IMG/VR virus record: IMGVR_UViG_3300042445_001029
Coordinates: 1 to 29,053 of that record
Source of the DNA: a virus
DNA length: 29,053 bases
Direction: 5' to 3' (one strand)
A program made the position numbers and the translations under genes. Shown here piece after piece: positions 7,743 through 18,784 of this stretch. The notes beneath the pieces are model-generated. The model had not been told where the DNA came from. It worked only from the letters and a program-made list of their open reading frames with translations, and did no database searches. Numbering within the stretch: position 1 is the first letter of the stretch; each line of letters opens with the position of its first letter.

Positions 7743-8307
7743 AATAAACTTTTTAGCACGGTGCGTTTAGAAAATAAAATAAAAAAATTGTTCTTAATGC
7801 CTGCGTATTTCTTAAAGGAGATCCCTCGGCCCAGTCCCCCTCCCTGTTTACAATCCTATAGCATCATGAATGTAAACTTAAAGCATTACGTTAAGTTGAC
7901 AATCAAACGTCGGATCGTCATGCAGTTGGAAGGTCGCGACAAGCGCCAGCAAAACGTCGGATCGTCATGACGACGCAGGTTCATGCAGAATGTTTGCGCC
8001 TGGACGGCGCGGGATAAAAAACGTCGGATCGTCGAATCGCCATGACGATTTCGGTCGCTCAAATCTTTTTGCCACCGCTATATTATTATGTTTACATTTA
8101 TTCTAAAACTCACAGTACTTACACCCATGACGATATGACGATATGCAGGCCGCGCCTGGGGTTGAGCGGGCATTGCCGACGACGATCTCACAACTATCCG
8201 CGACTATATCCACAATTAATCGCCCAAAATGGGGCAAAACATAATAAAACTCTTTACGACCCTCAAAAAACGTGAGAGGATAACATATCCACAAAGGAGG
8301 ACATGAC
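7743..8307. promoter_or_regulatory. Gene-free divergent control region between late and early genes (origin/operator candidate)
   Basis: This is the longest gene-free stretch in the window, between the leftward late operon and the rightward early cluster. It holds AT-rich blocks (7766-7795, 8080-8105), three direct repeats (7905-8033), a perfect 10-base palindrome at 7963-7972, a tandem TGACGATA repeat near 8128-8144 and two ATATCCACA motifs (8206, 8285). A TTGACA at 7896-7901 has no good -10 partner. A possible early promoter on the plus strand pairs TTAATC (about 8216) with CATAAT (8240-8245); this is weak. Short open frames here lack ribosome sites and protein-like composition. Confidence 0.6.
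7905..8033 (+). repeat. Three direct repeats of AAACGTCGGATCGTC
   Basis: Identical 15-base copies lie at 7905-7919, 7952-7966 and 8019-8033; the first two share three more bases (ATG). The start-to-start distances are 47 and 67 bases. The second copy runs into the palindrome CGTCATGACG, and the third is followed at 8042 by an inverted GACGAT half. This arrangement suits operator or iteron sites for a phage DNA-binding protein. Confidence 0.85.
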
Positions 8308-8454
8308 ATGAAGACGCGTAAGAACTCTAAGGTAAAGATCTGGTACATCTACGCCAGCACAGGCGACGAGATCGGGCAGTTCTCGTTCTATCGGAAGGAG
8401 ATCAGAGCATATTTTCCCGGTAGCCGTATTGTAAAAAACCGCGTGTATCTGTAA
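8308..8454 (+). CDS. Early small basic protein, 48 aa
   Basis: The first gene of the rightward cluster has a very strong ribosome site (AAAGGAGG, seven bases before ATG 8308). A decoy ATG at 8303 is stopped after two codons. The product starts MKTRKNSKVKIWYIYASTGD and ends RIVKNRVYL. It is basic and aromatic with no membrane helix. It looks like a single small beta domain and is not recognised. The stop codon is part of the second TAACATATCCACA element. Confidence 0.72.
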   Translation: MKTRKNSKVKIWYIYASTGDEIGQFSFYRKEIRAYFPGSRIVKNRVYL

Positions 8455-8482
8455 CATATCCACACAACAAAAGGAGACGACG

Positions 8483-8752
8483 ATGACTGACAATACCTAT
8501 AACGGCTGGACAAACTACGCGACGTGGCGGGTCAATCTGGAGATATTCGACGGCATGGATGTTGACGATATGGGATGGCGCGGGATGGACAGATGGGAAC
8601 TTGCGTCTGTCCTGCGCGACTATGCCGAAGAGATCATAGAACAAACCGCGCCGGAAGGATTGGCGCGTGACTATGCGCTGGCGTTTCTTGATGGGGTGAA
8701 TTATCGCGAGATTGCCGACATGCTTATCGGCCAGAACGAAGAAGCAGCATAA
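8483..8752 (+). CDS. Early acidic phage protein with NGWTNYATW motif, 89 aa
   Basis: A GGAG ribosome site precedes ATG 8483. The N-terminal TYNGWTNYATWRVNLEIFDG motif marks a widespread family of small phage proteins of unknown function; the rest is acidic and helical (ELASVLRDYAEEIIEQTAPEG, ALAFLDGVNYREIADML). The low pI and small size would suit a host-takeover or DNA-mimic-type protein, but that is only inference. It is followed at once by a terminator hairpin. Confidence 0.83.
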   Translation: MTDNTYNGWTNYATWRVNLEIFDGMDVDDMGWRGMDRWELASVLRDYAEEIIEQTAPEGLARDYALAFLDGVNYREIADMLIGQNEEAA

Positions 8753-8756
8753 TCAC

Positions 8757-8785
8757 AGGCGGCGCTTCACGGCGTCGCCTATTTT
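8757..8785 (+). terminator. Rho-independent terminator or attenuator in the early cluster
   Basis: A nine-pair stem (AGGCGGCGC with GCGTCGCCT, one G-U pair) closes a six-base loop and is followed by ATTTTG. It lies five bases after the stop of the 89-residue gene and just before the third TAACGTATCCACA element. Confidence 0.75.
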
Positions 8786-8811
8786 GTAACGTATCCACAA
8801 GGAATAACGAC

Positions 8812-9264
8812 ATGACAAACTTAAAAGCATGGTGCGAAAGCAAATGGGAAGGCCCGATGCTTAACATCGGTCACGGCAACGTGTTCACGCAAGAAGGCGC
8901 GAACATTCGCGTGCGCGGCGGGAGCGCTCGCAATTACAAATCAAAAGAACAAAAAGCCTATGAGGCGCGATTCGGCATTTACAATGAAAAGCTAAAGCCC
9001 GTGATTTTGGCTGAAGCAACAAAAACCGATGGCGTTTATCGGTGGCCGGCACATAACAAGCCGGCGCCAGTCGTCGCAATACCGCGCAAGCGCGTCCCGA
9101 AGGCTAAACTAGAACAAGCCGCCGCTATTATCGCCAAAGTGCCGCAAGACGAGCTGGCGGCCTTCCTTGCCAAGTTCGGCCTGTCATTGTCGCTCGCCGC
9201 GTCCATCGCGTCGCTGGACAACGCGGAGATGATCGCGCGTCAATTCTTGAGGGCTACGCTATGA
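8812..9264 (+). CDS. Early protein of unknown function, 150 aa
   Basis: An AAGGA ribosome site lies eight bases before ATG 8812. The N-terminal half is basic and polar (ESKWEGPMLNIGHGNVFTQE, GGSARNYKSKEQKAYEARFG). A Pro/Lys linker (AHNKPAPVVAIPRKRVPKAK) leads to a helical C-terminal domain of about 55 residues (AAAIIAKVPQDELAAFLAKF). The C-terminal helices resemble small DNA- or protein-binding bundles. I do not recognise the family. The stop overlaps the next gene's ATG. Confidence 0.72.
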   Translation: MTNLKAWCESKWEGPMLNIGHGNVFTQEGANIRVRGGSARNYKSKEQKAYEARFGIYNEKLKPVILAEATKTDGVYRWPAHNKPAPVVAIPRKRVPKAKLEQAAAIIAKVPQDELAAFLAKFGLSLSLAASIASLDNAEMIARQFLRATL

Positions 9265-9425
9265 TCGAACTAGAGCTAGAGGCGCAAGCAATACTAGAGC
9301 TTATTGACTTGTTATCGCGCACAAGTAACAAATCCACATATCTAAGCGACGCGCTGCTAACCCTGCGCGACGTTTACGACAACGCAGCCGAAGAATACTG
9401 GACAAACGTTTGGAGCAACCAATGA
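9261..9425 (+). CDS. Small acidic helical protein, 54 aa
   Basis: The frame starts at ATG 9261 in an ATGA overlap with the previous gene and ends in an AATGA overlap with the next. The product MIELELEAQAILELIDLLSR continues through TLRDVYDNAAEEYWTNVW and is acidic and all-helical. Both-ends coupling and protein-like composition support it. The function is unknown. Confidence 0.6.
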   Translation: MIELELEAQAILELIDLLSRTSNKSTYLSDALLTLRDVYDNAAEEYWTNVWSNQ

Positions 9426-10503: not shown

Positions 10504-10738
10504 CCTTGACACCGAACCCGGTGGGGTCATGACCCGCTGGAAGGTCGGAGAGGGGCTGTCGCTGCATCGGCGCGACGGCTCGCTCATAATGAAAATCCAT
10601 GCGCCCTATGCTGACGAGCGTTCTGTCGTCACGGCGGCGCACGCGCTCAATTTCATGTTCAAGAGTCTAAAACATGCAAAAGCAAGAGATGATCGAAGAG
10701 ATTCGGGAGCTGATCGAGGAAACAGCCCGGAATCATAA
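10490..10738 (+). CDS. Small protein of unknown function, 82 aa
   Basis: ATG 10490 overlaps the end of the previous gene by 14 bases. The first 60 residues look folded (GGVMTRWKVGEGLSLHRRDG, LIMKIHAPYADERSVVTAA). The last 20 (ARDDRRDSGADRGNSPES) read through the start of the next gene and look like frame-shifted tail sequence. No known motif is visible. Confidence 0.5.
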   Translation: MLRLDLDTEPGGVMTRWKVGEGLSLHRRDGSLIMKIHAPYADERSVVTAAHALNFMFKSLKHAKARDDRRDSGADRGNSPES

Positions 10739-10919
10739 CATACCCACCGAAGCCCTGACCGGCCACAACCGCCGCAAAGGGGTCATCTGGCCCCGGTTCG
10801 AGATTATGTGGCGCGCCAGGCACGAGCTGAACGCGCCGCTCCAGCTAATCGGACAAGTGCTAGGCGGGCGCGACCACACGACCATCATGCACGGGATCAA
10901 ACGCTATGAAAACAGGTGA
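10674..10919 (+). CDS. Stand-alone DnaA domain IV-like DNA-binding protein, 81 aa
   Basis: The whole protein corresponds to the DNA-binding domain IV of the replication initiator DnaA. It has a first helix (IEEIRELIEETARNHNIP), a basic loop region (TGHNRRKGVIWPR), a helix (RFEIMWRARHELN) and the helix-turn-helix with the signature LGGRDHTTIMHGIKRYE. There is no AAA+ ATPase and no domain I. In DnaA this region reads the TTATCCACA box. Here it may act as a repressor, an origin binder or a competitor of host DnaA. An internal ATG at 10689 is an alternative start. Confidence 0.85.
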   Translation: MQKQEMIEEIRELIEETARNHNIPTEALTGHNRRKGVIWPRFEIMWRARHELNAPLQLIGQVLGGRDHTTIMHGIKRYENR

Positions 10920-10974
10920 AGCCATGGCAATCTTAATCGCTGTTTTAATCGAGCTGGTGTTGGGGCTGAAATGA
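10906..10974 (+). CDS. Possible 22-residue hydrophobic peptide
   Basis: ATG 10906 (or 10924, preceded by AGGTGA) to a stop that overlaps the next gene's ATG. The product MKTGEAMAILIAVLIELVLG plus LK is a bare hydrophobic helix. It fills the only gap in the coupled cluster, so it could be a tiny membrane peptide or simply a coupling leader. Confidence 0.35.
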   Translation: MKTGEAMAILIAVLIELVLGLK

Positions 10975-11171
10975 CGTTCGAGGAACAATATCAGGCCATA
11001 CAGGCCGTAATACCTGACCTGCCGCGTGACGTGCCGGCCTATCAGGTCAATCCACCCCTCTGGGCGTTCTGGCGCACGGTAGAGCCGTGGGCGCAAGAGA
11101 GCCCCGTCTTCACTGAAATGGAGATCGTGCGCCGGCTGGACTTGCTTTACATGGGCCAAGGCGTCTGCTAA
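10971..11171 (+). CDS. Last early-cluster gene, 66 aa, unknown
   Basis: ATG 10971 is in ATGA overlap with the preceding tiny frame. The product MTFEEQYQAIQAVIPDLPRD has a Trp/Pro-rich centre (NPPLWAFWRTVEPWAQ) and a helical end (FTEMEIVRRLDLLYMGQG). The family is not recognised. It is followed by the cluster's terminator 43 bases later. Confidence 0.65.
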   Translation: MTFEEQYQAIQAVIPDLPRDVPAYQVNPPLWAFWRTVEPWAQESPVFTEMEIVRRLDLLYMGQGVC

Positions 11172-11214
11172 TAATCTTTTTGTGCTTTCTGCACGTTTCC
11201 TCCCAATGGTGACT

Positions 11215-11244
11215 GGCCCCGGCTCCCCCGCCGGGGTCTTTTTT
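11215..11244 (+). terminator. Strong rho-independent terminator ending the early cluster
   Basis: A nine-pair GC-rich stem (GGCCCCGGC with GCCGGGGTC, one G-U pair) with a six-base loop is followed by six T. It closes the rightward transcript that starts near 8.25 kb and insulates it from the leftward gene ending at 11243. No U tract follows on the minus strand. Confidence 0.9.
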
Positions 11245-11719
11245 AGTATCCGAGCATCGCCCGAAGATAATTTAAAACGCTCGGTTCATACTCTGGCCCT
11301 TGCGGCGCGACATAATCGCGCCCGCCGGCAAACGTAGCGTCAGGCAGCCGCTGAAAGCTCTGCGGCAAGATAGGCGCAGCCCCAGGCATTACGCCGGCCA
11401 TAGACTGTCTAAAACGATCCATAAACGCTTGGCGCTTCACGGCGGCGTCAGCCGGGGCCATGTAGTACTGCCCCACCAAATCCGTGTATTGATGCGGCAG
11501 ATAGACGCCTCCCTTACCCGCCGGCGCGGGCATGGGGACGCCTTGATAGCTGGCGATGTCGGCAATGGCCGGCCCAAAGTTCTCTACGTCAGTCGGGGCG
11601 TAATAATCCGTATGGGCCAGCATAGCGTTTCGCCGGTCCATCACAGCGTCCATGGCTTCCGCCTCCCTCTGTTTTTGTGTTATAGGGGCGAACATGTAAT
11701 TGACGGAACCTTTAGGCAT
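11243..11719 (-). CDS. Ala/Pro/Tyr-rich protein of unknown function, 158 aa
   Basis: The frame runs from ATG 11719 (or ATG 11695, MFAPITQKQREAEAMDAVMD) to a stop beside the early terminator. Composition is low in charge and rich in Ala, Pro, Tyr and Gly (GVPMPAPAGKGGVYLP, PGAAPILPQSFQRLPD, FAGGRDYVAPQGPEYEP), with helical segments around residues 15-35 and 90-110. It resembles virion accessory or ejection proteins more than replication proteins, though it lies in the replication half. No domain is recognised and no convincing ribosome site is seen. Confidence 0.68.
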   Translation of the reverse strand: MPKGSVNYMFAPITQKQREAEAMDAVMDRRNAMLAHTDYYAPTDVENFGPAIADIASYQGVPMPAPAGKGGVYLPHQYTDLVGQYYMAPADAAVKRQAFMDRFRQSMAGVMPGAAPILPQSFQRLPDATFAGGRDYVAPQGPEYEPSVLNYLRAMLGY

Positions 11720-11963
11720 GACCGAGTCCGAGTTTGAACGCCGCCTGAAGGCGCTCCAGCAAGAAATATCTGAGTCTTATCTTAAAGGATATAACGAGGC
11801 CAGGCAACGCGCCCAGTGGACTATAGCGGCGGCCGTCGATGAAAGCACCCGTCTACGGAACGCGCTCGAATGGGCGCTAGACGAGGTTCAAGACGAAAGC
11901 CGCCGAGTCCGTATTCTAGCAGCAATGCACAGGCGGCAACCAACCAATCACGAACGAGACTGA
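11718..11963 (+). CDS. Small coiled-coil-like protein, 81 aa
   Basis: The start ATG 11718 shares bases with the oppositely oriented start at 11719. The product MTESEFERRLKALQQEISES is charged and almost entirely helical, with heptad-like spacing through RLRNALEWALDEVQDESRRV. Composition is far more protein-like than a shadow frame. It lies alone on the plus strand between minus-strand genes and converges with the next gene (16-base 3' overlap). The ribosome site is weak. The function is unknown. Confidence 0.6.
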   Translation: MTESEFERRLKALQQEISESYLKGYNEARQRAQWTIAAAVDESTRLRNALEWALDEVQDESRRVRILAAMHRRQPTNHERD

Positions 11964-12154
11964 CCATAGCCTAGGCCCTCCAGCAGCTCGCGGGCCGTCT
12001 CATGGGCCTGACATAGCCCCTCGACGATCTCCGGCGGACACTCATCGTCCCCCGGAGTCGCCGCCCAGTCAAGGTAAAGATCAAGCTGATCGGTTAAATT
12101 CGCCAAGACGTTCATAAAGACCGGATAGGCGTCAACCTTTAAGTGGGACGACAT
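11948..12154 (-). CDS. Small acidic protein, 68 aa, end of replication operon
   Basis: ATG 12154 overlaps the end of the primase-helicase gene, with GGAAAG just upstream, so it is co-translated. The product is acidic and helical (VFMNVLANLTDQLDLYLDWA, EIVEGLCQAHETARELLEGL). No known motif is visible. Confidence 0.65.
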   Translation of the reverse strand: MSSHLKVDAYPVFMNVLANLTDQLDLYLDWAATPGDDECPPEIVEGLCQAHETARELLEGLGYGQSRS

Positions 12155-14408
12155 TGTCTTTCCAGTCCGGTTCGACCATGTTGCGTAGCTTGGCTTTAGG
12201 CAACGCCGCTAGGTCAGGCCGCACGAATATGTGCCGCTTCGATTTATATTCAGGCGAGCTACAAAGCCCTTTGTCAACCCATCCGGCCTCTTTCAGAGCA
12301 TGAAACAGCGCCGGCTGAACGATCCTTGTCCGCAGATTGTCCGGCGCGGCCTGTGACAACTCTTTAAGGATGATGTGCCAGGGGCCAGAGATGATGTCGG
12401 TCTTGAACGGCGATTCTTGCTTTTCGATAAGGTGATGAATGTAGCTCTCCGCGTTGCTCATGCCGGTGTAGATCAAACGCTGCTTGTATTCGGTCGCAAA
12501 CGGAATCGCTTTCGGATTAAACTGCGACACGTCCCGCCCGCGCAACCAGCCCGCAACCGCCTCAAATCCACCGGCCTTATACCAGTCCCAGATCCGCGTC
12601 GTCTCCTCCGGCGTCATCTTCGGCGCGTCAGACCAGACGCAGAACCAGCGCCGGTCGTCACTGTCGAGCGTGATCGGCATGGATTCGTTCGTGAACGCCA
12701 GCATGAAGATCCGATTAGGCATCTCGAACGGATGCAAACCTTTGCGGTTGACCGTCAGCATCTCCGGCGGCGCGGCGATGATCGGCTTGAGCTTGTTCGC
12801 CAGCGCCCGGCGCTCTTTCGCTTCCGGCTCTTTCAGCTCGTTTAACACCATGATCTCAGTCTGATAATGGTAGCCAAAATCGCTGTTGATCTTATTGCTG
12901 TCGATCACCGCGACGTTTCTCATGTGCTCGCCGCCAACGGCCCAGAGCAGCGGATACCACATGGTGTCCTTGCCGATACCGCCGTTGCCGCCGTGCAGGA
13001 TCGCGTGATTGATCTTCGTGCGCGGCTGCTGTGCCTTCACGGCCATCACGTTCCAGATATGCTCAAGTTCGCGTTCGTCCGGCACGAGACGCCGGCAATG
13101 GTCAATCCAAAGCTGCGGATTACCGGCGCTCTCGACCTTCGGCCTGGCGTCGCGCCAGACGTTGCCATAAACGAGCCCATCGCGCGCAACCTTCCAGTCG
13201 TCACCGGCAGCGTAGGTCATGCCTTTCAAGACATAACCCTTTTGAGCCTCGCGGTTTTCATCATACCAAACCGACGCCTCAAGCCGACGCGGTTTTTCGC
13301 CCGTAGACTTACATTCGACATGCCGGAAAATCGCGTTAAACGCGCGGCGGCTGATCTCTTGACCTGTCTTATGGTCAAAATAACCGTCATCATCGACGAC
13401 ATAAGCGAAGCGTTTATGCCATGTGGCGCGTTCTTCGCGCCCCGCTTGCTTGCGCTCCACTTCAGCAATTCGAACCGCCGCCTCGTCAGGAAACGCTTCG
13501 GTCGGCGTCAGCGAACTAATCTTGCTGGTGTAGTCGGCAATGAGATCGTCTCGCAGGCCGGGGATAGCGCGCGGCCCACCTTGTTCCGATACCCAATCGC
13601 AAAAGAACTTGCTATCAAGATGCTCGCAATGAGCGTGATAGCAACAGAATGAACGATCCTGCGGCTTATATCGCGCTTCAATCTGTCCATCTGTGTGTCC
13701 TTCATGATTCGGGCAGACGACGCCGCACCAACCTTCGGCGTTTACGCCGGACGTAACAAGACCGTTCTCGCTCAGCCACGCCAGCACTGTGTCATTGCCA
13801 GTGTCTTTTACTCTAAAAGAGACGTGTCTTGCAGTGCCAGTCTCAGCCGGCGTAACGCCAAGCGCCGTGCAAATTTCCGCGAGCGTGTATTCGTTCTTTG
13901 GGTGAAACTCTACTTCGCGACAGACAAACGCGTCGCGTCCCGGCTTGACGTTAACCGAGCCTGGCAGGCGACAGTTACGCACGGCGTTAGTAGCACCAGG
14001 ATCGGTATAGCCAGCTTCAGCAATAGCGGTAAGAGCTGCACAATGTTCCTCCACGGTCGGCTGGTCGCTGTAAGCATACCAGTATTGATAGTTGCCGGGG
14101 CTTGTCTCGACGATAGCGGTCGGTTCTAGTGACGGAATCTTCGACTTGGTGCCAATGTCGTCCAGCATCATAAACAGCACATGCGTGCAGTTCGCCACGC
14201 TGGCGGACGGCTTGTCGCGCATACGATCCATGATGAACGAGCCGGTGTTGAGAAACCAACTCTCGCCTTCCTTACGCTTGTGCTTCGGCAGATACGCCGG
14301 CCAAGTGTATTTAGGCGAACCGTCCTTGTGCAGCTTGCCCGTGTCGATCTGTTTGACAATCAGCGCTGTCTCGCCTTTCGGCGCAAGAGATGTAAAATAG
14401 TTAATCAT
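12132..14408 (-). CDS. Primase-helicase (primpol plus SF3-type helicase)
   Basis: The start is taken as ATG 14408, overlapping the stop of the upstream gene after GAGGAAAG. The N-terminal archaeo-eukaryotic-type primase shows the metal-binding MMLDD (about residues 80-84) and NCRLPGSVNVKPG (145-157). A Cys/His cluster at 228-261 (CGVVCPNH ... CCYHAHC) suggests a zinc knuckle. A helicase domain follows, like those of NrS-1-type polymerases (DUF5906 group): Walker A GGNGGIGKDT at 473-482, Walker B-like IMVLNELKE at 519, and AFTNESMPITLDSDDRRWF. The 758-residue protein would prime and unwind at the phage fork. It lies in one operon with PolA. Confidence 0.9.
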   Translation of the reverse strand: MINYFTSLAPKGETALIVKQIDTGKLHKDGSPKYTWPAYLPKHKRKEGESWFLNTGSFIMDRMRDKPSASVANCTHVLFMMLDDIGTKSKIPSLEPTAIVETSPGNYQYWYAYSDQPTVEEHCAALTAIAEAGYTDPGATNAVRNCRLPGSVNVKPGRDAFVCREVEFHPKNEYTLAEICTALGVTPAETGTARHVSFRVKDTGNDTVLAWLSENGLVTSGVNAEGWCGVVCPNHEGHTDGQIEARYKPQDRSFCCYHAHCEHLDSKFFCDWVSEQGGPRAIPGLRDDLIADYTSKISSLTPTEAFPDEAAVRIAEVERKQAGREERATWHKRFAYVVDDDGYFDHKTGQEISRRAFNAIFRHVECKSTGEKPRRLEASVWYDENREAQKGYVLKGMTYAAGDDWKVARDGLVYGNVWRDARPKVESAGNPQLWIDHCRRLVPDERELEHIWNVMAVKAQQPRTKINHAILHGGNGGIGKDTMWYPLLWAVGGEHMRNVAVIDSNKINSDFGYHYQTEIMVLNELKEPEAKERRALANKLKPIIAAPPEMLTVNRKGLHPFEMPNRIFMLAFTNESMPITLDSDDRRWFCVWSDAPKMTPEETTRIWDWYKAGGFEAVAGWLRGRDVSQFNPKAIPFATEYKQRLIYTGMSNAESYIHHLIEKQESPFKTDIISGPWHIILKELSQAAPDNLRTRIVQPALFHALKEAGWVDKGLCSSPEYKSKRHIFVRPDLAALPKAKLRNMVEPDWKDNVVPLKG

Positions 14409-15130
14409 CTTTCCTCGCAAAATATTCCGCAGTCGATCTGCATGTTTTTTAACGGTCGGCCTGTCGCGCCTTCCGGTAACTCGTCGAGAAACATTCGTTT
14501 GTTCTTATATCGCACTAACCGCACACCTAGACTGCGCGATTGCGCTGCCCGGTCAGCGTAAACGTCAGGATATTCTTTACGCACTAAAGACCAATAAGTC
14601 GGTGACGTAGCTTTAACGCAGCCGATACAGTTGGCGTTAGGAAAGCCTTTGCTATAGATGCGCGGCGGCTGAATGCCAGCGGCCAAGATCATGTTGAGGC
14701 AATCCTGTTTTGTCAGGCCAGCGTCGATCAGCACCGGCAGCACGTTGTCACGTTCCGACAGGACGAAACGATCAAACCGATGGCGCTCGTCGACCGTAAA
14801 ACCCAGCACATGCCAGTCGGCTTTATTGTCGCGTTCCCATTCCTGACGGGCGCGTTTCTTTAGCTCGACCGTGCAGACGGCCCCAGTCGGGCCAGACATA
14901 AACCCGCGCTTCTGCCATATATCGCGCGCCGAACAGGACGGGTATTTGCTATTGACGGCGCGTTCGATCTTGACGCCAAGCCATGACTCAACGTCGCGCA
15001 AGAAGCGCTCATTGTCTTCGTCCTCTTCGACGACCGGGTTGTTAATAACCCGAACGTCAGAATATCTCTCTAGCGTTAGCTTTGCGGCAACTGCGCTGGC
15101 GGCTCCGCAAGAAAACCAAACCGCAATCAT
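14405..15130 (-). CDS. PAPS reductase-like PP-loop protein
   Basis: The start at ATG 15130 overlaps the PolA stop. The 241-residue protein opens MIAVWFSCGAASAVAAKLTL, whose SCGAAS matches the modified PP-loop of phage phosphoadenosine-phosphosulfate-reductase-like proteins. Conserved features continue: Cys66 and Cys86 (YPSCSARDIW, AVCTVELKKRA), GFTVDERHRFDRF, a CIGC pair at 168-171 with WSLVRKEYP, and Cys234/Cys238 near the end. The family activates a substrate with ATP (adenylation) and often carries Fe-S clusters. Placement between polymerase and primase suggests nucleotide or DNA (or tRNA) thiolation or modification rather than sulfate assimilation; the substrate is unknown. Confidence 0.85.
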   Translation of the reverse strand: MIAVWFSCGAASAVAAKLTLERYSDVRVINNPVVEEDEDNERFLRDVESWLGVKIERAVNSKYPSCSARDIWQKRGFMSGPTGAVCTVELKKRARQEWERDNKADWHVLGFTVDERHRFDRFVLSERDNVLPVLIDAGLTKQDCLNMILAAGIQPPRIYSKGFPNANCIGCVKATSPTYWSLVRKEYPDVYADRAAQSRSLGVRLVRYKNKRMFLDELPEGATGRPLKNMQIDCGIFCEER

Positions 15131-17013
15131 TTGCCGTATCTTTCCATAATGGTGGCTTCTACTTCTAACGGCAGACCTTCCGCCCATGCAGGCGGCGTCG
15201 TCATTACTTCTTCAAGGAGCGCCTTCGCCTCTTCGGGCCGATCAGACTCCAGAACAATTTCATCGTGAACATGCAACACAACGTCAGGCAGACGGCGCAG
15301 AGCCTCACGTAGAAGATCATGGGCGGTCGCTTGTGTGACGTTCTCGCAAGCCAGCCCTCTCCAGAGCCGACCCCGAGGCCACTCTTTAGCATCCGCCGCA
15401 GGCTTCCAAGACGCCTTTGAATAGGTGATCGAACCATCTTCTTCAAACCGGGCGTTCGGGTAACAAAGCACCCGGCCAGAAGGCAGAGCATACCAAAGGT
15501 GCTGTTTGTCGGCCAAGTATTTTACACGACCAGCCTCAAATATTTTACCTAGATTGCGCAGCGCACGAATGTAAGCAACTTCAAGATCAGACCAGAACGG
15601 CACTGACCACGGGTTAGCTTGACGCCAGGCGTCGACCATACGCTTCGCTTCAGGCTCCGGCAAATGCAGGCCATAAGCGCGACCCATCGCCGCAAACGCG
15701 CCAACGCCGCCGCCGAATCCGCACGCAAGTTCTTGAACTTTACCGACTTGTCTCTGCGACTTGTCAACCTGTTCATATTTGACGTGAAACGTCGCAGCAG
15801 CGTTTACAATGTAAGGATCAAGATGATCGCGGAACGCTTGTAACTTATCCTCACCGCGACCGGACAACCACGGATTAACGCGGCCTTCGATGGCCGACCA
15901 ATCCGCGACGACGAACTGCTTGCCGGGCGCAGGGATCAGGGCTGGCCGAAGCATACCTCGCAAAACGTCCGTGACTCTTCGTCCGTAATTAGGCACGATT
16001 GCATGACCCCGAACCATTGCATGTCGCACGGCTTCCGGGTCATCGGCGCACTTACGTGTGAAGTTGTGGACTTGCGCACCATACGAGGAAGCGCGTCCCG
16101 TGGCTGATCCGCCGGCAAAGACAAAAGCGCCTCGAACACGACCATCAGCACAAGCAAGGTTATCAAGGCGATTAAACTTAGCAACAGAAGACGCCCATAG
16201 GTCATCGGCGCATTGTATGACTTCTCTGACATCGGGAGGCACCTCCTCTGGATCGTCTATGGCCAGTAGGTTGGCCCGAACTGACTTGTCGATTGAGACT
16301 TTATCGGCACGTTCCATAAGTTTACGCGCTTCTGATCCAACACGTTCGAAGACCCATTCTCGCATTCGAGGGCTTCTGACAGTCTGAATCTCACCGTTCG
16401 TGACGGTCTTAACCGTAGCTTCGATCTCTTGAAGTTCATCAGCCGCATATTTGACCGCCGCGCGGCATAGACGCTGATCGACAAGAACGCCACGATCATT
16501 GATGCGCTCGTTAGCATGATAGTCCTCTAGTTCTTCATCGGTGAGATCACGCATGGCTTTGCTGACAGCGCGCATGGTCCTGACATCTTGTTCGCAGTAT
16601 TCGATAAGCTCAGGTATGAGATCGTCACGGTAAGGAGGAATACAGCAAGCACGGACCAAAGCATTGCCGCGATGATCTTTGCGCATTTCAGTTCCAGCGA
16701 AGCGACCGACATCTTCCAGGCTTCCTGGCGCGCAGTTGGCTCTGGCTTGTGCTGCGGTGCAGTAGAACTGTTCGAGTGGTATGGGCACGCCAAGCACATG
16801 CCAGAAGATGAGCCGCTCAAAGGCGGCGTTGTGGGCTCGTATCTGTCCTTTAATCTCTGGGAAAGGCTCGCCCATGCGCCATGTCCGAACGGGATCGTCG
16901 CCATAGGCGTAGGACATACAGATAACTTGCGTGGATGGATGTCGTGCATAGTTATACACTCCCGCTGTTTTTAGATCGCATTCTGATCTTGTCTCGAAAT
17001 CTAGCCAGATCAT
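15127..17013 (-). CDS. Family A DNA polymerase with 3'-5' exonuclease
   Basis: The 628-residue replicative polymerase has exonuclease motifs DFETRSE (Asp5, Glu7), HNAAFE (61-66) and YCEQD (139-143). Polymerase motif A is VVADWSAIEGR (Asp371), motif B is RQVGKVQELACGFGGG (421-436) and motif C is HVHDEIVLE (581-589, catalytic Asp584). All catalytic residues are present, so the enzyme should proofread. The 5' nuclease domain of bacterial Pol I is absent, as in other phage and plasmid members. The ATG overlaps the upstream gene's stop, and the stop overlaps the next ATG. Confidence 0.96.
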   Translation of the reverse strand: MIWLDFETRSECDLKTAGVYNYARHPSTQVICMSYAYGDDPVRTWRMGEPFPEIKGQIRAHNAAFERLIFWHVLGVPIPLEQFYCTAAQARANCAPGSLEDVGRFAGTEMRKDHRGNALVRACCIPPYRDDLIPELIEYCEQDVRTMRAVSKAMRDLTDEELEDYHANERINDRGVLVDQRLCRAAVKYAADELQEIEATVKTVTNGEIQTVRSPRMREWVFERVGSEARKLMERADKVSIDKSVRANLLAIDDPEEVPPDVREVIQCADDLWASSVAKFNRLDNLACADGRVRGAFVFAGGSATGRASSYGAQVHNFTRKCADDPEAVRHAMVRGHAIVPNYGRRVTDVLRGMLRPALIPAPGKQFVVADWSAIEGRVNPWLSGRGEDKLQAFRDHLDPYIVNAAATFHVKYEQVDKSQRQVGKVQELACGFGGGVGAFAAMGRAYGLHLPEPEAKRMVDAWRQANPWSVPFWSDLEVAYIRALRNLGKIFEAGRVKYLADKQHLWYALPSGRVLCYPNARFEEDGSITYSKASWKPAADAKEWPRGRLWRGLACENVTQATAHDLLREALRRLPDVVLHVHDEIVLESDRPEEAKALLEEVMTTPPAWAEGLPLEVEATIMERYGK

Positions 17014-17264
17014 TGCAGCCCGCGCGGGTCTACTACGTTATAGCCGCTAACGTCGCGTTCATGCGCGTTAGAAATAGCCGATAGAATGTCCTTCATAACC
17101 CAAAGTGGCGGCTGAGATACGGCTATGACGACGCTTAGATTATCTACAAGCCCCCAAATTATTTCCTGCTGAGCTATAATGGATTTATTCTTAACCATGT
17201 ATTCGTTACATGTGTTAAGAATAGCCGCCGACGCTGCGGACGGGTCTATAAGTTTATCAGTCAT
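17010..17264 (-). CDS. Small helical protein, 84 aa
   Basis: It is coupled at both ends by ATGA-type overlaps, directly upstream of PolA. The product MTDKLIDPSAASAAILNTCN carries hydrophobic helices (EIIWGLVDNLSVVIAV, LWVMKDILSAISNAHE), too polar for clear membrane segments. The family is not recognised. Confidence 0.65.
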   Translation of the reverse strand: MTDKLIDPSAASAAILNTCNEYMVKNKSIIAQQEIIWGLVDNLSVVIAVSQPPLWVMKDILSAISNAHERDVSGYNVVDPRGLQ

Positions 17265-17422
17265 TGTTCGTCTCCGCTAATTTCCGGTATGCGCACCCAA
17301 AATCTTAAGCCATCATCGGCGTTAAGATACATGGAGTAAACGCTGCCGTCTTCGCACAGCGCGTAAAGTGTCTCTACGGTTTCGTCGCTTATCGCCGCTA
17401 TTTGAATGATCTTCTTATTCAT
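17261..17422 (-). CDS. Small beta-type phage protein, 53 aa
   Basis: The start is set at ATG 17422, which overlaps the stop of the previous gene and follows GGGGAAAG; earlier Met codons lie within that gene. The product MNKKIIQIAAISDETVETLY continues ALCEDGSVYSMY and WVRIPE. The pattern KKIIQIAxxx ... LYALCEDGSVxxxx recurs in small phage proteins of unknown function and looks like two or three beta strands. Confidence 0.72.
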   Translation of the reverse strand: MNKKIIQIAAISDETVETLYALCEDGSVYSMYLNADDGLRFWVRIPEISGDEQ

Positions 17423-17651
17423 TGTTGCTTTCCCCATAGTGGTAGCCAAGATATTCACCGTTCGGGCCGTTGTAGATCGTCATGTTGCCGACCTTCGGCG
17501 CTGAGATCATGCCCTGCGGCGTGTAGTAGAAGTTCTCGTTAGGATAGCTTAGTTCTGTTGCGACTGGCCCGTTCGGCCCACCCCAGACTGAGATCTCTTG
17601 AGCTGCTGCTGGTGATGCCAGTAGCGTGACTGTGAGTAGGATTCTAACCAT
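17415..17651 (-). CDS. Small exported (signal-peptide) protein, 78 aa
   Basis: The N-terminus MVRILLTVTLLASPAAAQE is a good Sec signal peptide with an A-x-A cleavage site before Gln18. The mature ~60 residues are Gly/Asn/Pro/Tyr-rich (VWGGPNGPVATELSYP, FYYTPQGMISAPKVGN, IYNGPNGEYLGYHYG) with a repeated (Y/W)xGPNG unit. A periplasmic role, for example superinfection exclusion or envelope modification, is possible, but none is shown. It overlaps the preceding small membrane-protein frame. Confidence 0.72.
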   Translation of the reverse strand: MVRILLTVTLLASPAAAQEISVWGGPNGPVATELSYPNENFYYTPQGMISAPKVGNMTIYNGPNGEYLGYHYGESNNE

Positions 17652-17719
17652 GACACAAACACTCCCGATGCTAGGCCAAAGCCGTAAAAGAAAAGATACA
17701 GCGACAAATCTTCAATCAT
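17549..17719 (-). CDS. Possible small membrane protein overlapping the exported protein, 56 aa
   Basis: ATG 17719 lies in an ATGA overlap with the upstream gene and directly after GGAGAGAAGGA, one of the best ribosome sites in the operon. It encodes MIEDLSLYLFFYGFGLASGV, a single transmembrane helix to about residue 25, then a Ser/Gln-rich tail that overlaps the signal-peptide gene out of frame for about 100 bases. Either it is a real membrane protein or the site mainly serves coupling into the downstream gene. Confidence 0.5.
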   Translation of the reverse strand: MIEDLSLYLFFYGFGLASGVFVSWLESYSQSRYWHHQQQLKRSQSGVGRTGQSQQN

Positions 17720-18105
17720 TCCTTCTCTCCCAGATAAGCGGCGCGGGCGGCGCGGAGGTCGCCAAGACGCATCAACACAGTTGACGTAAAGTCATCAGCG
17801 TAACGCTTGTCGTCAGCCATGATGGAAAAGTCACGCTGTAGCATTTCGTCAAACGGTTTCAGCGCCGCCATAAGTTCCTCAATCGCGTCGGCGGCTTTCC
17901 GATATTCTTTTAGCCATTCGGTGAAGTTTTGTTCTAGGTGTTCTATCTCGGCTTCCAGTTCCGCAACCCGTGCCCGTAGCTGGTCGTTCACATGCAGCGA
18001 GACCTGTAGTTCGGCCTCTAGGTCGGTGATGGCGTCGGCGCATGAGTTCGCAACTTGCGTATCAAAAAAGCGCAGCCGTGCGATTAGGTCGGTGTAGTCA
18101 GTCAT
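17716..18105 (-). CDS. Coiled-coil protein, 129 aa
   Basis: An AAGGA site lies six bases before ATG 18105, inside the end of the upstream gene. A long central coiled coil (DLEAELQVSLHVNDQLRARV, AELEAEIEHLEQNFTEWLKE) occupies about residues 28-75, with short helices either side and a C-terminal RLGDLRAARAAYLGEKE. Many phages carry such 'ead/Ea22-like' coiled-coil proteins of unknown role in early operons. No enzyme motif is visible. Confidence 0.72.
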   Translation of the reverse strand: MTDYTDLIARLRFFDTQVANSCADAITDLEAELQVSLHVNDQLRARVAELEAEIEHLEQNFTEWLKEYRKAADAIEELMAALKPFDEMLQRDFSIMADDKRYADDFTSTVLMRLGDLRAARAAYLGEKE

Positions 18106-18784
18106 GTCTTATCCTTTTCATCACGCGGCCAAAGTCCGGTGGTATGTCCGTGCATTCCATTTTCACCGCTTTGCGGCGGATCTCGCAGAGCGCTGACGTG
18201 ACTTGGTGAGGTGTCTTGCCTAGCTGGTTTGCTACCTGCACATGGTTAAGACCTTCTTTTATTAGCCGGATTACTTCAGACTCGAAGAAAGAAAATCCGT
18301 TATCCGATTTAGTATTATATACGACGATCTTACGCTCCAAAGGCTCCAGCGACGACGGGTCGGCCAGACCTTTTTTGTGCGCGTAAAGCACCGTCGTATG
18401 ATCGCGCTTAACGTAACGACCAACGCCAGCGTATGACGCATTCGGGATCTCTTCCATGCAGCGGAATATAAATTCGCGCCGCGCCTGCGTTATGTGCGCC
18501 AGTCGAGATACGCCAAGGATCGATTTGTAAGGCACCTTATGCTTGCGTGCGACTTCGCCTAAGATCATCCGGTATGTCGTCGGCATCCCGCTAGTCGGTG
18601 TGTATTCAGCATTGACCGCTGCTTCTAGCGCCATGCGCTGCTGTGGGGTCAGTTCAGGCTCAGACTCCAGCATACGCAACGCCCGCGTCGCCACGCGAAG
18701 CCGATGCTTACGCGCTGCGTCAGTCTGCGATGGTGGTTTGCGTTTCGGGCCGTCGTAGCCCGCATACGGGAACAGATACGCCAT
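18098..18784 (-). CDS. DnaA domain IV-like protein with extra C-terminal helix-turn-helix, 228 aa
   Basis: GGAG precedes ATG 18784. After a basic N-terminal region, residues ~75-142 follow the DnaA domain IV pattern: ILGEVARKHKVPYKSILGVS, a helix (TQARREFIFRCMEEIP), and the helix-turn-helix signature YVKRDHTTVLYAHKKG. A second helix-turn-helix-like region follows at ~165-215 (FFESEVIRLIKEGLNHVQVA, NQLGKTPHQVTSALCEIRRK). There is no ATPase. It could bind DnaA-box-like sites in the phage or host genome as a regulator or origin factor. Together with the 81-residue protein at 10674, it gives the phage two such domains. Confidence 0.82.
   Translation of the reverse strand: MAYLFPYAGYDGPKRKPPSQTDAARKHRLRVATRALRMLESEPELTPQQRMALEAAVNAEYTPTSGMPTTYRMILGEVARKHKVPYKSILGVSRLAHITQARREFIFRCMEEIPNASYAGVGRYVKRDHTTVLYAHKKGLADPSSLEPLERKIVVYNTKSDNGFSFFESEVIRLIKEGLNHVQVANQLGKTPHQVTSALCEIRRKAVKMECTDIPPDFGRVMKRIRHD

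Follow-up and report, generated by a model that had tools for sequence, protein, structure and literature searches.

The 29,053 bases of virus record IMGVR_UViG_3300042445_001029, the whole of that record (which gives no completeness) and here called the window, encode two proteins with the DNA-binding domain IV of the bacterial replication initiator DnaA, each in its own open reading frame (ORF): ORF A on the plus strand and ORF B on the minus strand. Upstream of ORF A lies a row of small genes interspersed with short elements built around the sequence TATCCACA. We find that this pairing of ORF A with DnaA-box-like DNA, to which a preliminary description of the window had drawn attention, is real and conserved, with four exact copies of TATCCACA in the window and copies upstream of A in 35 of the 36 loci compared. 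The features concerned are listed below; "early" is a term that we infer from gene order.

8206-8214, plus strand: upstream box, ATATCCACA, which precedes the element 1 box by 79 bp
8281-8293, plus strand: element 1, TAACATATCCACA, 14 nucleotides (nt) before the first early ORF (start 8308); recurs in relatives
8308-8454, plus strand: first early ORF, 48 amino acids (aa), cassette 1
8452-8464, plus strand: element 2, TAACATATCCACA, whose TAA serves as stop codon for the ORF before it; TTGTAA lies 17 nt upstream
8483-8752, plus strand: early ORF, 89 aa, cassette 2, with a weak, below-cut-off similarity to DUF7249
8757-8780, plus strand: terminator-like hairpin of 10 pairs with the tail ATTTTG, followed by element 3
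8787-8799, plus strand: element 3, TAACGTATCCACA, immediately 3' of that hairpin
8812-9264, plus strand: early ORF, 150 aa, no family, cassette 3
10674-10919, plus strand: ORF A, 81 aa, a stand-alone DnaA domain IV (PF08299, AlphaFold2 model) and the proposed repressor of the early cassettes
18098-18784, minus strand: ORF B, 228 aa, DnaA domain IV (PF08299) in mid-protein and a possible C-terminal helix-turn-helix; accessory

The four exact copies of TATCCACA in the window, at 8207, 8286, 8457 and 8792, all lie on the plus strand; the expectation is 0.40, and none of 100 shuffled sequences reaches four. Three of them are contained in TAACRTATCCACA, which itself occurs three times against an expectation of 0. 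The full 9-mer TTWTNCACA is absent from the window, whose boxes match the consensus TTATNCACA at eight of nine bases, and copies of TATCCACA with one mismatch are not enriched there (16 vs 13.4; 25 of 100 shuffles reach 16). For these reasons "DnaA-box-like" is an apt term for the window and "DnaA box" too strong a one. The near-matches TAACAAATCCACA, at 9326, and TAACATACCCACC, within ORF A, were left out as sites. Another recurrent near-match, TAACATATCTACT, was also left out; in the four loci inspected it ends a small ORF. Terminator-like sites between 7700 and 11300 number five, with 4.0 expected, and the cassette products are without assigned function.

ORF A carries the signature GGRDHTTIMHG, and its sole Pfam match above cut-off is PF08299 (Bac_DnaA_C), which spans residues 12-77 at 58.6 bits (E 6.4e-16; gathering cut-off 31.5 bits). 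The DnaA initiator model TIGR00362 scores 52.9 bits with ORF A and 30.6 with ORF B, in both cases through its C-terminal end only and below its equivalog cut-off of 343.9, and a Pfam search extending to E 1 lists no AAA+ family in either protein, in agreement with the preliminary description, which had both lacking this motor. The AlphaFold2 model of ORF A is good (predicted local distance difference test, pLDDT, 94.7) and superposes on 1J1V, E. coli domain IV with a DnaA box, with a Z score of 13.2 and a root-mean-square deviation of 1.2 over 74 residues; a second structural match is 3PVP (Z 12.6). The gapless alignment to 1J1V pairs R33 with R399, R41 with R407, R66-T70 with R432-T436 and H73 with H439. 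In E. coli, domain IV contacts bases through positions 399, 423, 432-435, 438 and 439 (PMC5043019; published work is cited from excerpts here and below), with 5'-TnCACA read by the helix of residues 434-451 and the 5' TTA read by R399 via the minor groove (PMC5742627), and the sequence-specific binding of DnaA is described as resting on domain IV alone (PMC5835720). Six of these eight positions are identical in ORF A, the basic-loop arginine R33 (R399) among them, and the two that differ are Q57 for P423 and M72 for L438. The preliminary description had made its case hinge on conservation of the basic-loop and helix-turn-helix residues that contact the box, and for ORF A the structural alignment does not refute it; judged by the family match and the model, ORF A is a complete DnaA domain IV with, as that description also held, little beyond the domain.

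The protein as such is not a rarity; the surprise lies in the DNA near ORF A. When viral protein structures were searched, 32 of the 50 matches listed carried the name "Chromosomal replication initiator, DnaA C-terminal", and named phages (MW202483, Rhizobium and Microcystis phages) also bear DnaA-C annotations, the closest relative of ORF A in the named-phage collection having at most 41% identity. Stand-alone DnaA-C proteins are common in phages, already annotated and not new. Literature searches returned no study of a stand-alone phage DnaA domain IV and no reported function for one, which, as judged by titles and the beginnings of abstracts, is weak evidence of absence. No host was identified either by a DNA-pattern search of genome contigs for a prophage or host, which gave no match, or by a search with protein A, whose relatives (the best 80 of 570) have at most 55% identity, carry many phyla in their titles and are presumably mostly host DnaA genes. 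The window has no Rfam family at gathering score and no tRNA.

Comparison across relatives shows how closely the boxes accompany ORF A. We collected 35 close relatives of ORF A from viral contigs (75-100% identity), which with the window make 36 loci, several of them near-copies. These stretches hold 106 copies of TATCCACA, 102 on A's strand, and the sequence lies upstream of A in all loci but L023, where A is at the contig edge and the boxes are at the other end of the record. ORF A follows the first box by about 1.8-3.4 kb in the relatives, and most A-bearing records have three to seven near-matches. When no motif is presupposed, no 8-mer is repeated more widely than TATCCACA ahead of A in a non-redundant set of 25 loci (42 merged, with L023 left out; 20 found through protein A and five through the box pattern), with at least two copies on A's strand in 24 of the 25 and on the other strand in none; among the 20 loci found through protein A, 19 have at least two copies. 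TATCCACA can be preceded by A, C, G or T, so the T with which the 9-mer opens is not conserved.

Two arrangements are seen repeatedly. In the first, found at the first promoter, TTGAC is followed after two bases by TATCCACA and, 18-19 bp on, by a second TATCCACA placed after TAACA; the boxes are 26-27 bp apart, start to start, in most relatives, with wider spacings at this position in the window (79 bp) and in L026 (58 bp). Across 20 distinct contexts of this two-box promoter, TTGAC stands two bases before the upstream box in 16 and TTGCA, TTGCC or TTGAT in four, although the column scores are partly given by construction because the search pattern fixes most letters. In the second arrangement a lone TAAC-N-TATCCACA often comes directly after a G+C-rich hairpin with a T run. 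Merging 45 elements gave 29 distinct ones, 11 with the two-box promoter and 18 others, the latter comprising four in first position (L004, L020, L026 and L028) and 14 within operons. A hairpin of -14 kcal/mol or lower precedes 10 of the 18, all 10 intra-operon, and the mean hairpin energy at the 18 is -13.6 kcal/mol vs -7.8 at 2000 control positions. A hexamer matching TTGACA at five or more of six bases lies 16-18 nt before TAACNT at six of the 18 elements vs 43 of the 2000 controls (Fisher 2e-6), and L020 has an exact TTGACA-16-TAACAT. Given this register, TAACNT is best read as a -10 hexamer, with its final T doubling as the opening T of TATCCACA.

Downstream of the elements, an ATG ORF begins 9-27 nt away in 49 of 51 cases in the 25 loci, vs 717 of 5000 control positions in the same regions (1428 of 5000 when any start within 45 nt is accepted). 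These ORFs form 15 unrelated groups; that of cassette 2 (8483-8752) is found behind an element in 5 of the 25 loci and that of cassette 3 (8812-9264) in 12. By sequence comparison, the element is constant while the gene behind it changes.

Searches that started from DNA rather than from protein A lead back to the same gene. A scan for paired boxes returned 46 stretches, 42 of this type: those with at least 3.3 kb downstream encode A in 17 of 17 cases, and six of these (L097, L109, L114, L119, L123 and L125) are absent from the set collected through A, while shorter stretches encode it in 6 of 25. The remaining four are unrelated box clusters without A. We note that unrelated viral contigs (L104, L116 and L120, together with L111) carry dense, origin-like clusters of DnaA boxes such as TTATCCACAGGATATCCACAGG, in a stretch that is identical in three of them.

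A second set of loci was sampled by terminase. From the best 80 of 599 loci, 61 were taken on, and counts were confined to the 41 in which 3.5 kb or more lies upstream of terminase; TAACNTATCCACA is present in five of the seven with an A-family gene and in none of the 34 others, of which 14 have another DnaA-C gene and 20 none that was found (a Pfam check of these 20 supposedly DnaA-C-free records gives a match in one, outside the early region). The two A-family exceptions, L220 and L222, have TAAC-N-TATACACA at the same spot (TAACATATACACA, TAACGTATACACA and TAACTTATACACA), and TATACACA differs at the base that TTATNCACA leaves free. The residue equivalent to E. coli P423 is lysine in the A relatives of L220 and L222, and Q or A in the aligned members with TATCCACA. 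It is possible that lysine and TATACACA represent a paired change of protein and box, in two cases only.

To these 41 loci we added the window and phages MW202483 and OR003940, and in the resulting 44 examined every TTGAC site returned by a crude finder (TTGAC, a purine run and ATG, coding sites included). A box with at most one mismatch to TTATNCACA occurs at 17 of 65 such sites in loci with a DnaA-C gene vs 4 of 64 in loci without (p 0.002), or, counted by locus, in 12 of 23 vs 3 of 21 (p 0.009), while a reversed-consensus control gives 3 of 65 vs 1 of 64; the difference persists with the A-family loci removed, both by site (10 of 45, p 0.016) and by locus (7 of 15, p 0.04). Exact consensus copies at TTGAC sites are found in L212, L222, L233 and MW202483, and in L233 an exact TTATACACA lies on the minus strand over the -10 at all three TTGAC sites. 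At two of these three sites, and at one in MW202483 (L126; position 29001), the reverse box on the -10 is directly adjoined by a TNTNCACA-like box in forward orientation, so the sister lineage may use a dimer. MW202483 is the nearest named phage (terminase 82.5%), and in its ORF A slot, at the end of the same gene row, it has a 98-aa DnaA-C protein (64.2 bits), with TTATGCACA and TTTTACACA at two of its six promoter-like sites. In the related phage OR003940 that slot is occupied by an ORF annotated "repressor protein C", with helix-turn-helix matches under cut-offs, and the first promoter-like site has instead the palindrome GACCCAGTGGGTT, which recurs upstream too. Two further repeats were seen in such regions: between 33985 and 34750 of OR003940 (L127) a start-associated repeat of different sequence, containing TAACCCGTAACCGTAAAGGAACC, precedes each of three early genes, and in the early region of L230, which encodes another DnaA-C protein, two promoter-like sites share TTGACTAACAAAAAAACTGTGTTA, possibly the operator of that protein. 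Beyond these families, TNCACA shows no general excess in 32 distant DnaA-C loci, MW202483 and the window, and TTGAC followed by TNCACA occurs 14 times vs 8.65 expected in 33 distant loci and MW202483, three of the 14 coming from MW202483.

Were the host's own DnaA the reader of the boxes, the early promoters would run on the host replication clock and ORF A would compete to release or tune them. The boxes hold TATCCACA, eight of the nine bases of TTATCCACA, and ORF A keeps most contacts, so both proteins could bind, and DnaA is known to repress its own promoter and mioC (PMC5835720). However, the presence of the box tracks the phage DnaA-C gene (by locus, and in that the 13-mer is missing from all 34 loci that lack an A-family gene), the opening T of the 9-mer is free, and the boxes are single or 26-27 bp apart vs the 2-3 bp between the paired boxes needed by E. 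coli DnaA (PMC11317965), though other hosts may differ in this respect. Host DnaA as the reader therefore fits worse than ORF A, and we regard it as quite unlikely.

We suggest instead that the phage has reused the DNA-reading part of a replication protein as an early-gene repressor, and we put the probability that ORF A represses the variable early-gene cassettes through DnaA-like boxes at roughly 60%. ORF A would be a transcription factor consisting of DnaA domain IV only, reading single DnaA-type boxes, (N)TATCCACA, located over the -10 of early promoters or immediately after it. On entry these promoters would fire; as ORF A accumulates it would cover the -10 boxes and close them, and because its gene lies near the end of the array, the product would limit the array as it builds up. 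The early region would be a row of small-gene cassettes that can be exchanged; many would carry a TAAC-N-TATCCACA promoter/box unit of their own, often right behind the terminator of the preceding cassette, and any exchanged cassette that retains the box would remain under common control. That ORF A binds the boxes we hold to be very likely from their co-occurrence; that the outcome is repression is also probable, though less so, and is argued from gene order and position. The step from initiator domain to repressor would be a short one, since DnaA itself represses its own gene through a promoter box (PMC5835720). The preliminary description had offered repression of genes with DnaA boxes as one option among several; this is the option that the evidence favors, with the phage's own early genes as the targets.

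Several observations weigh against this interpretation. As to the promoters, a sigma-70 consensus scan calls none of the three window elements a promoter, though it flags the terminator before element 3; 12 of the 18 elements have no hexamer of at least five matches at -35, a rank test over the full range of -35 scores gives a p of only 0.02, TAACAT matches TATAAT at just four of six bases, and in the two-box promoter TTGAC lies 22-23 nt from TAACAT, beyond a standard spacer, which makes the exact -10 there a tentative assignment. No element lies directly before ORF A itself. As to linkage, four of the five box-bearing A-family terminase loci were already known through A, L215 alone being new; 11 of the 23 DnaA-C loci have no near-consensus box at a TTGAC site; the boxes of L231 and L267 are placed differently relative to TTGAC from that of L233; in this test the window has no hit at any of its three sites, its first promoter having TTTAC rather than TTGAC; and TATCCACA is not enriched near 38 distant DnaA-C loci. 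The p values of the linkage tests are too small, since the loci are related, the A-family (W[PA]RFE) was defined post hoc and four loci were known beforehand. Finally, given that E. coli DnaA requires paired boxes, a lone domain IV could bind single boxes only weakly, in which case the TAAC part may add contacts or ORF A may act at high dose.

If ORF A does read such boxes, its main target might lie elsewhere: a motorless domain IV could occupy oriC or other DnaA boxes and stop host replication, with the phage boxes serving only as feedback sites. Domain IV alone binds sequence-specifically (PMC5835720), the relevant residues are kept, and an early position would suit takeover, but this leaves unexplained why the box is retained at the start of exchangeable cassettes and why its type changes with the DnaA-C lineage, and we think it improbable as the principal role. 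The same linkage data would also accommodate an ORF A that binds these boxes and activates early or middle promoters, and the upstream box of the first promoter is at a possible activator position; the constant box, however, overlaps or follows the likely -10, where a bound protein would block polymerase, and in most relatives TTGAC is already present at the first promoter, which makes activation a very unlikely outcome.

A replication origin at 7.9-8.3 kb, marked by ORF A, ORF B or both, is suggested by the family of the two proteins and by an AT-rich stretch and AAACGTCGGATCGTCATG repeats (7905-8044) that adjoin the first boxes. Most boxes, though, precede start codons and keep register with signals resembling promoters and ribosome sites, L007, L014 and L027, among other relatives, keep the boxes although the preceding 420 bp differ, and neither protein has an AAA+ family, so we consider an origin highly unlikely to be what the boxes serve. 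The repeats deserve mention in their own right: direct repeats of the AAACGTCGGATCGTCATG type occupy 7905-8047 of the window, in the gap that separates the small-terminase gene from the first early gene, the corresponding repeat unit in relatives varies by lineage (for example ATAGTCAT, TTTATGCGG and GTTTATGTAAACATG), and they are a candidate packaging site, origin or operator. In the early region of L029, about 10 GGGATC repeats lie upstream of the first early gene.

The idea that we rate least probable, that the 13-mer acts in RNA as a translation start-associated or terminator/leader element unrelated to ORF A, draws on the closeness of 49 of 51 elements to a start codon, as in the start-associated sequences of Cluster K phages (PMC3203893), and on the hairpins that precede many copies, but has very little going for it given a core that is a DnaA-type box, upstream first-promoter copies that are not beside a start codon, a box that changes with the DnaA-C gene and the reversed orientation over the -10 in L233 and at one MW202483 site.

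ORF B does not take part in this pairing as far as the genomes indicate. It carries KRDHTTVLYAH, and PF08299 matches residues 73-138 at 43.1 bits (E 4.5e-11), more weakly than ORF A and above cut-off, which bears out the DnaA domain assigned to it earlier; the second helix-turn-helix also assigned is weakly backed, by Sigma70_r4_2 at E 0.15, under cut-off, and by a match of the sigma-H chain 3mzy to residues 136-207 at E 0.0056. Structure prediction, which served well for ORF A, is poor here (mean pLDDT 63.5), and the domain IV fold is not readable from the model. ORF B sits among replication genes on the strand opposite to ORF A, so that of the opposite early and replication operons once described, the strands stand as stated and "early" follows from gene order. 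Of the 36 A-bearing records, which include many fragments, 11 have a second PF08299 match; two long records (40,292 and 33,620 bases) have no B domain, and in the 40,292-base record a different ORF occupies the B slot. The equivalent of position 399 is R94 in ORF B and Q in four of five relatives, and no box is tied to ORF B. On gene content, ORF B is optional and not linked to the boxes, and the notion that the two proteins form one circuit is not sustained. Our guess is that it is probably a second regulator.

DnaA-C phage proteins are common and are named after replication, and the name may hide their role. The comparative signal described here ties one such family to promoter-like sites and yields a candidate operator sequence, the naturally occurring protein/box pairs of the different lineages form a series in which changes in the base preference of domain IV could be followed, and a search for the element could mine exchangeable early-gene arrays. 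Such arrays are a usual location of anti-host and anti-defence genes. It is a tentative and rather unlikely extension that an entire group of phage proteins labeled "replication initiator DnaA" are early-gene repressors descended from DnaA domain IV, whose DnaA-box operators change with the protein, and that they may also occupy host oriC, coupling early shut-off to control of host replication; the same protein may do so because the core of the box equals that of the host.

Known phage systems share single aspects of this arrangement. Cluster K mycobacteriophages have repeated 13-bp start-associated sequences, about half with an inverted repeat just upstream (PMC3203893), and here too a 13-bp sequence is repeated ahead of start codons; the core of the Cluster K sequence, however, resembles a ribosome-binding sequence and, in the excerpted report, its reader is not known, whereas ours is a DnaA-type box with a linked DnaA-C gene. 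Aca repressors have predicted sites in the core promoter, several families with a second site, and in reporter assays in E. coli they repressed the promoters cognate to them (PMC9410906). They are small helix-turn-helix proteins encoded behind a variable gene set, a gene order that ORF A fits, and a core-promoter register has support from 6 of the 18 elements and from the two-box promoters, though none from the consensus scan of the window. Aca sites, however, are inverted repeats, unlike the single, asymmetric DnaA-type boxes in the 13-mers of the window, which are repeated along the array; Aca proteins belong to other helix-turn-helix families than the PF08299 of ORF A, as judged by family match without a direct Aca homology search; and no anti-CRISPR gene was identified here, none having been specifically sought. 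The small repressor of L5 and TipsytheTRex binds as a monomer to its operators and stoperators, asymmetric 13-mers that point in the direction of transcription and are found at promoters as well as in short gaps between genes (PMC9283540). Our sites are likewise asymmetric and oriented with transcription (102 of 106 on A's strand, 49 of 51 before ATG ORFs), but they are fewer, some of the intergenic copies resemble independent promoters, no lysogeny gene was noted, none having been sought, and the L5 repressor has, going by its descriptions, two DNA-binding domains where ORF A has a DnaA domain IV. The proposed control would follow Aca logic, and its layout recalls that of L5. Because fold and site differ, we file the system under neither Aca nor L5.

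The DnaA-C proteins annotated in BFVD and in MW202483, Rhizobium and Microcystis phages have the same domain, stand-alone or embedded, as ORF A. The closest likeness of all is to DnaA domain IV on its box (1J1V and 3PVP), with which ORF A shares its fold, the basic-loop arginine, the helix-turn-helix signature and a related site, TATCCACA here and TATACACA or TTATACACA in relatives. Unlike bacterial DnaA, ORF A is without domains I-III, and hence without ATP control, the first T of the 9-mer is free in this phage, and the sites that it would read stand at the phage's own early genes.

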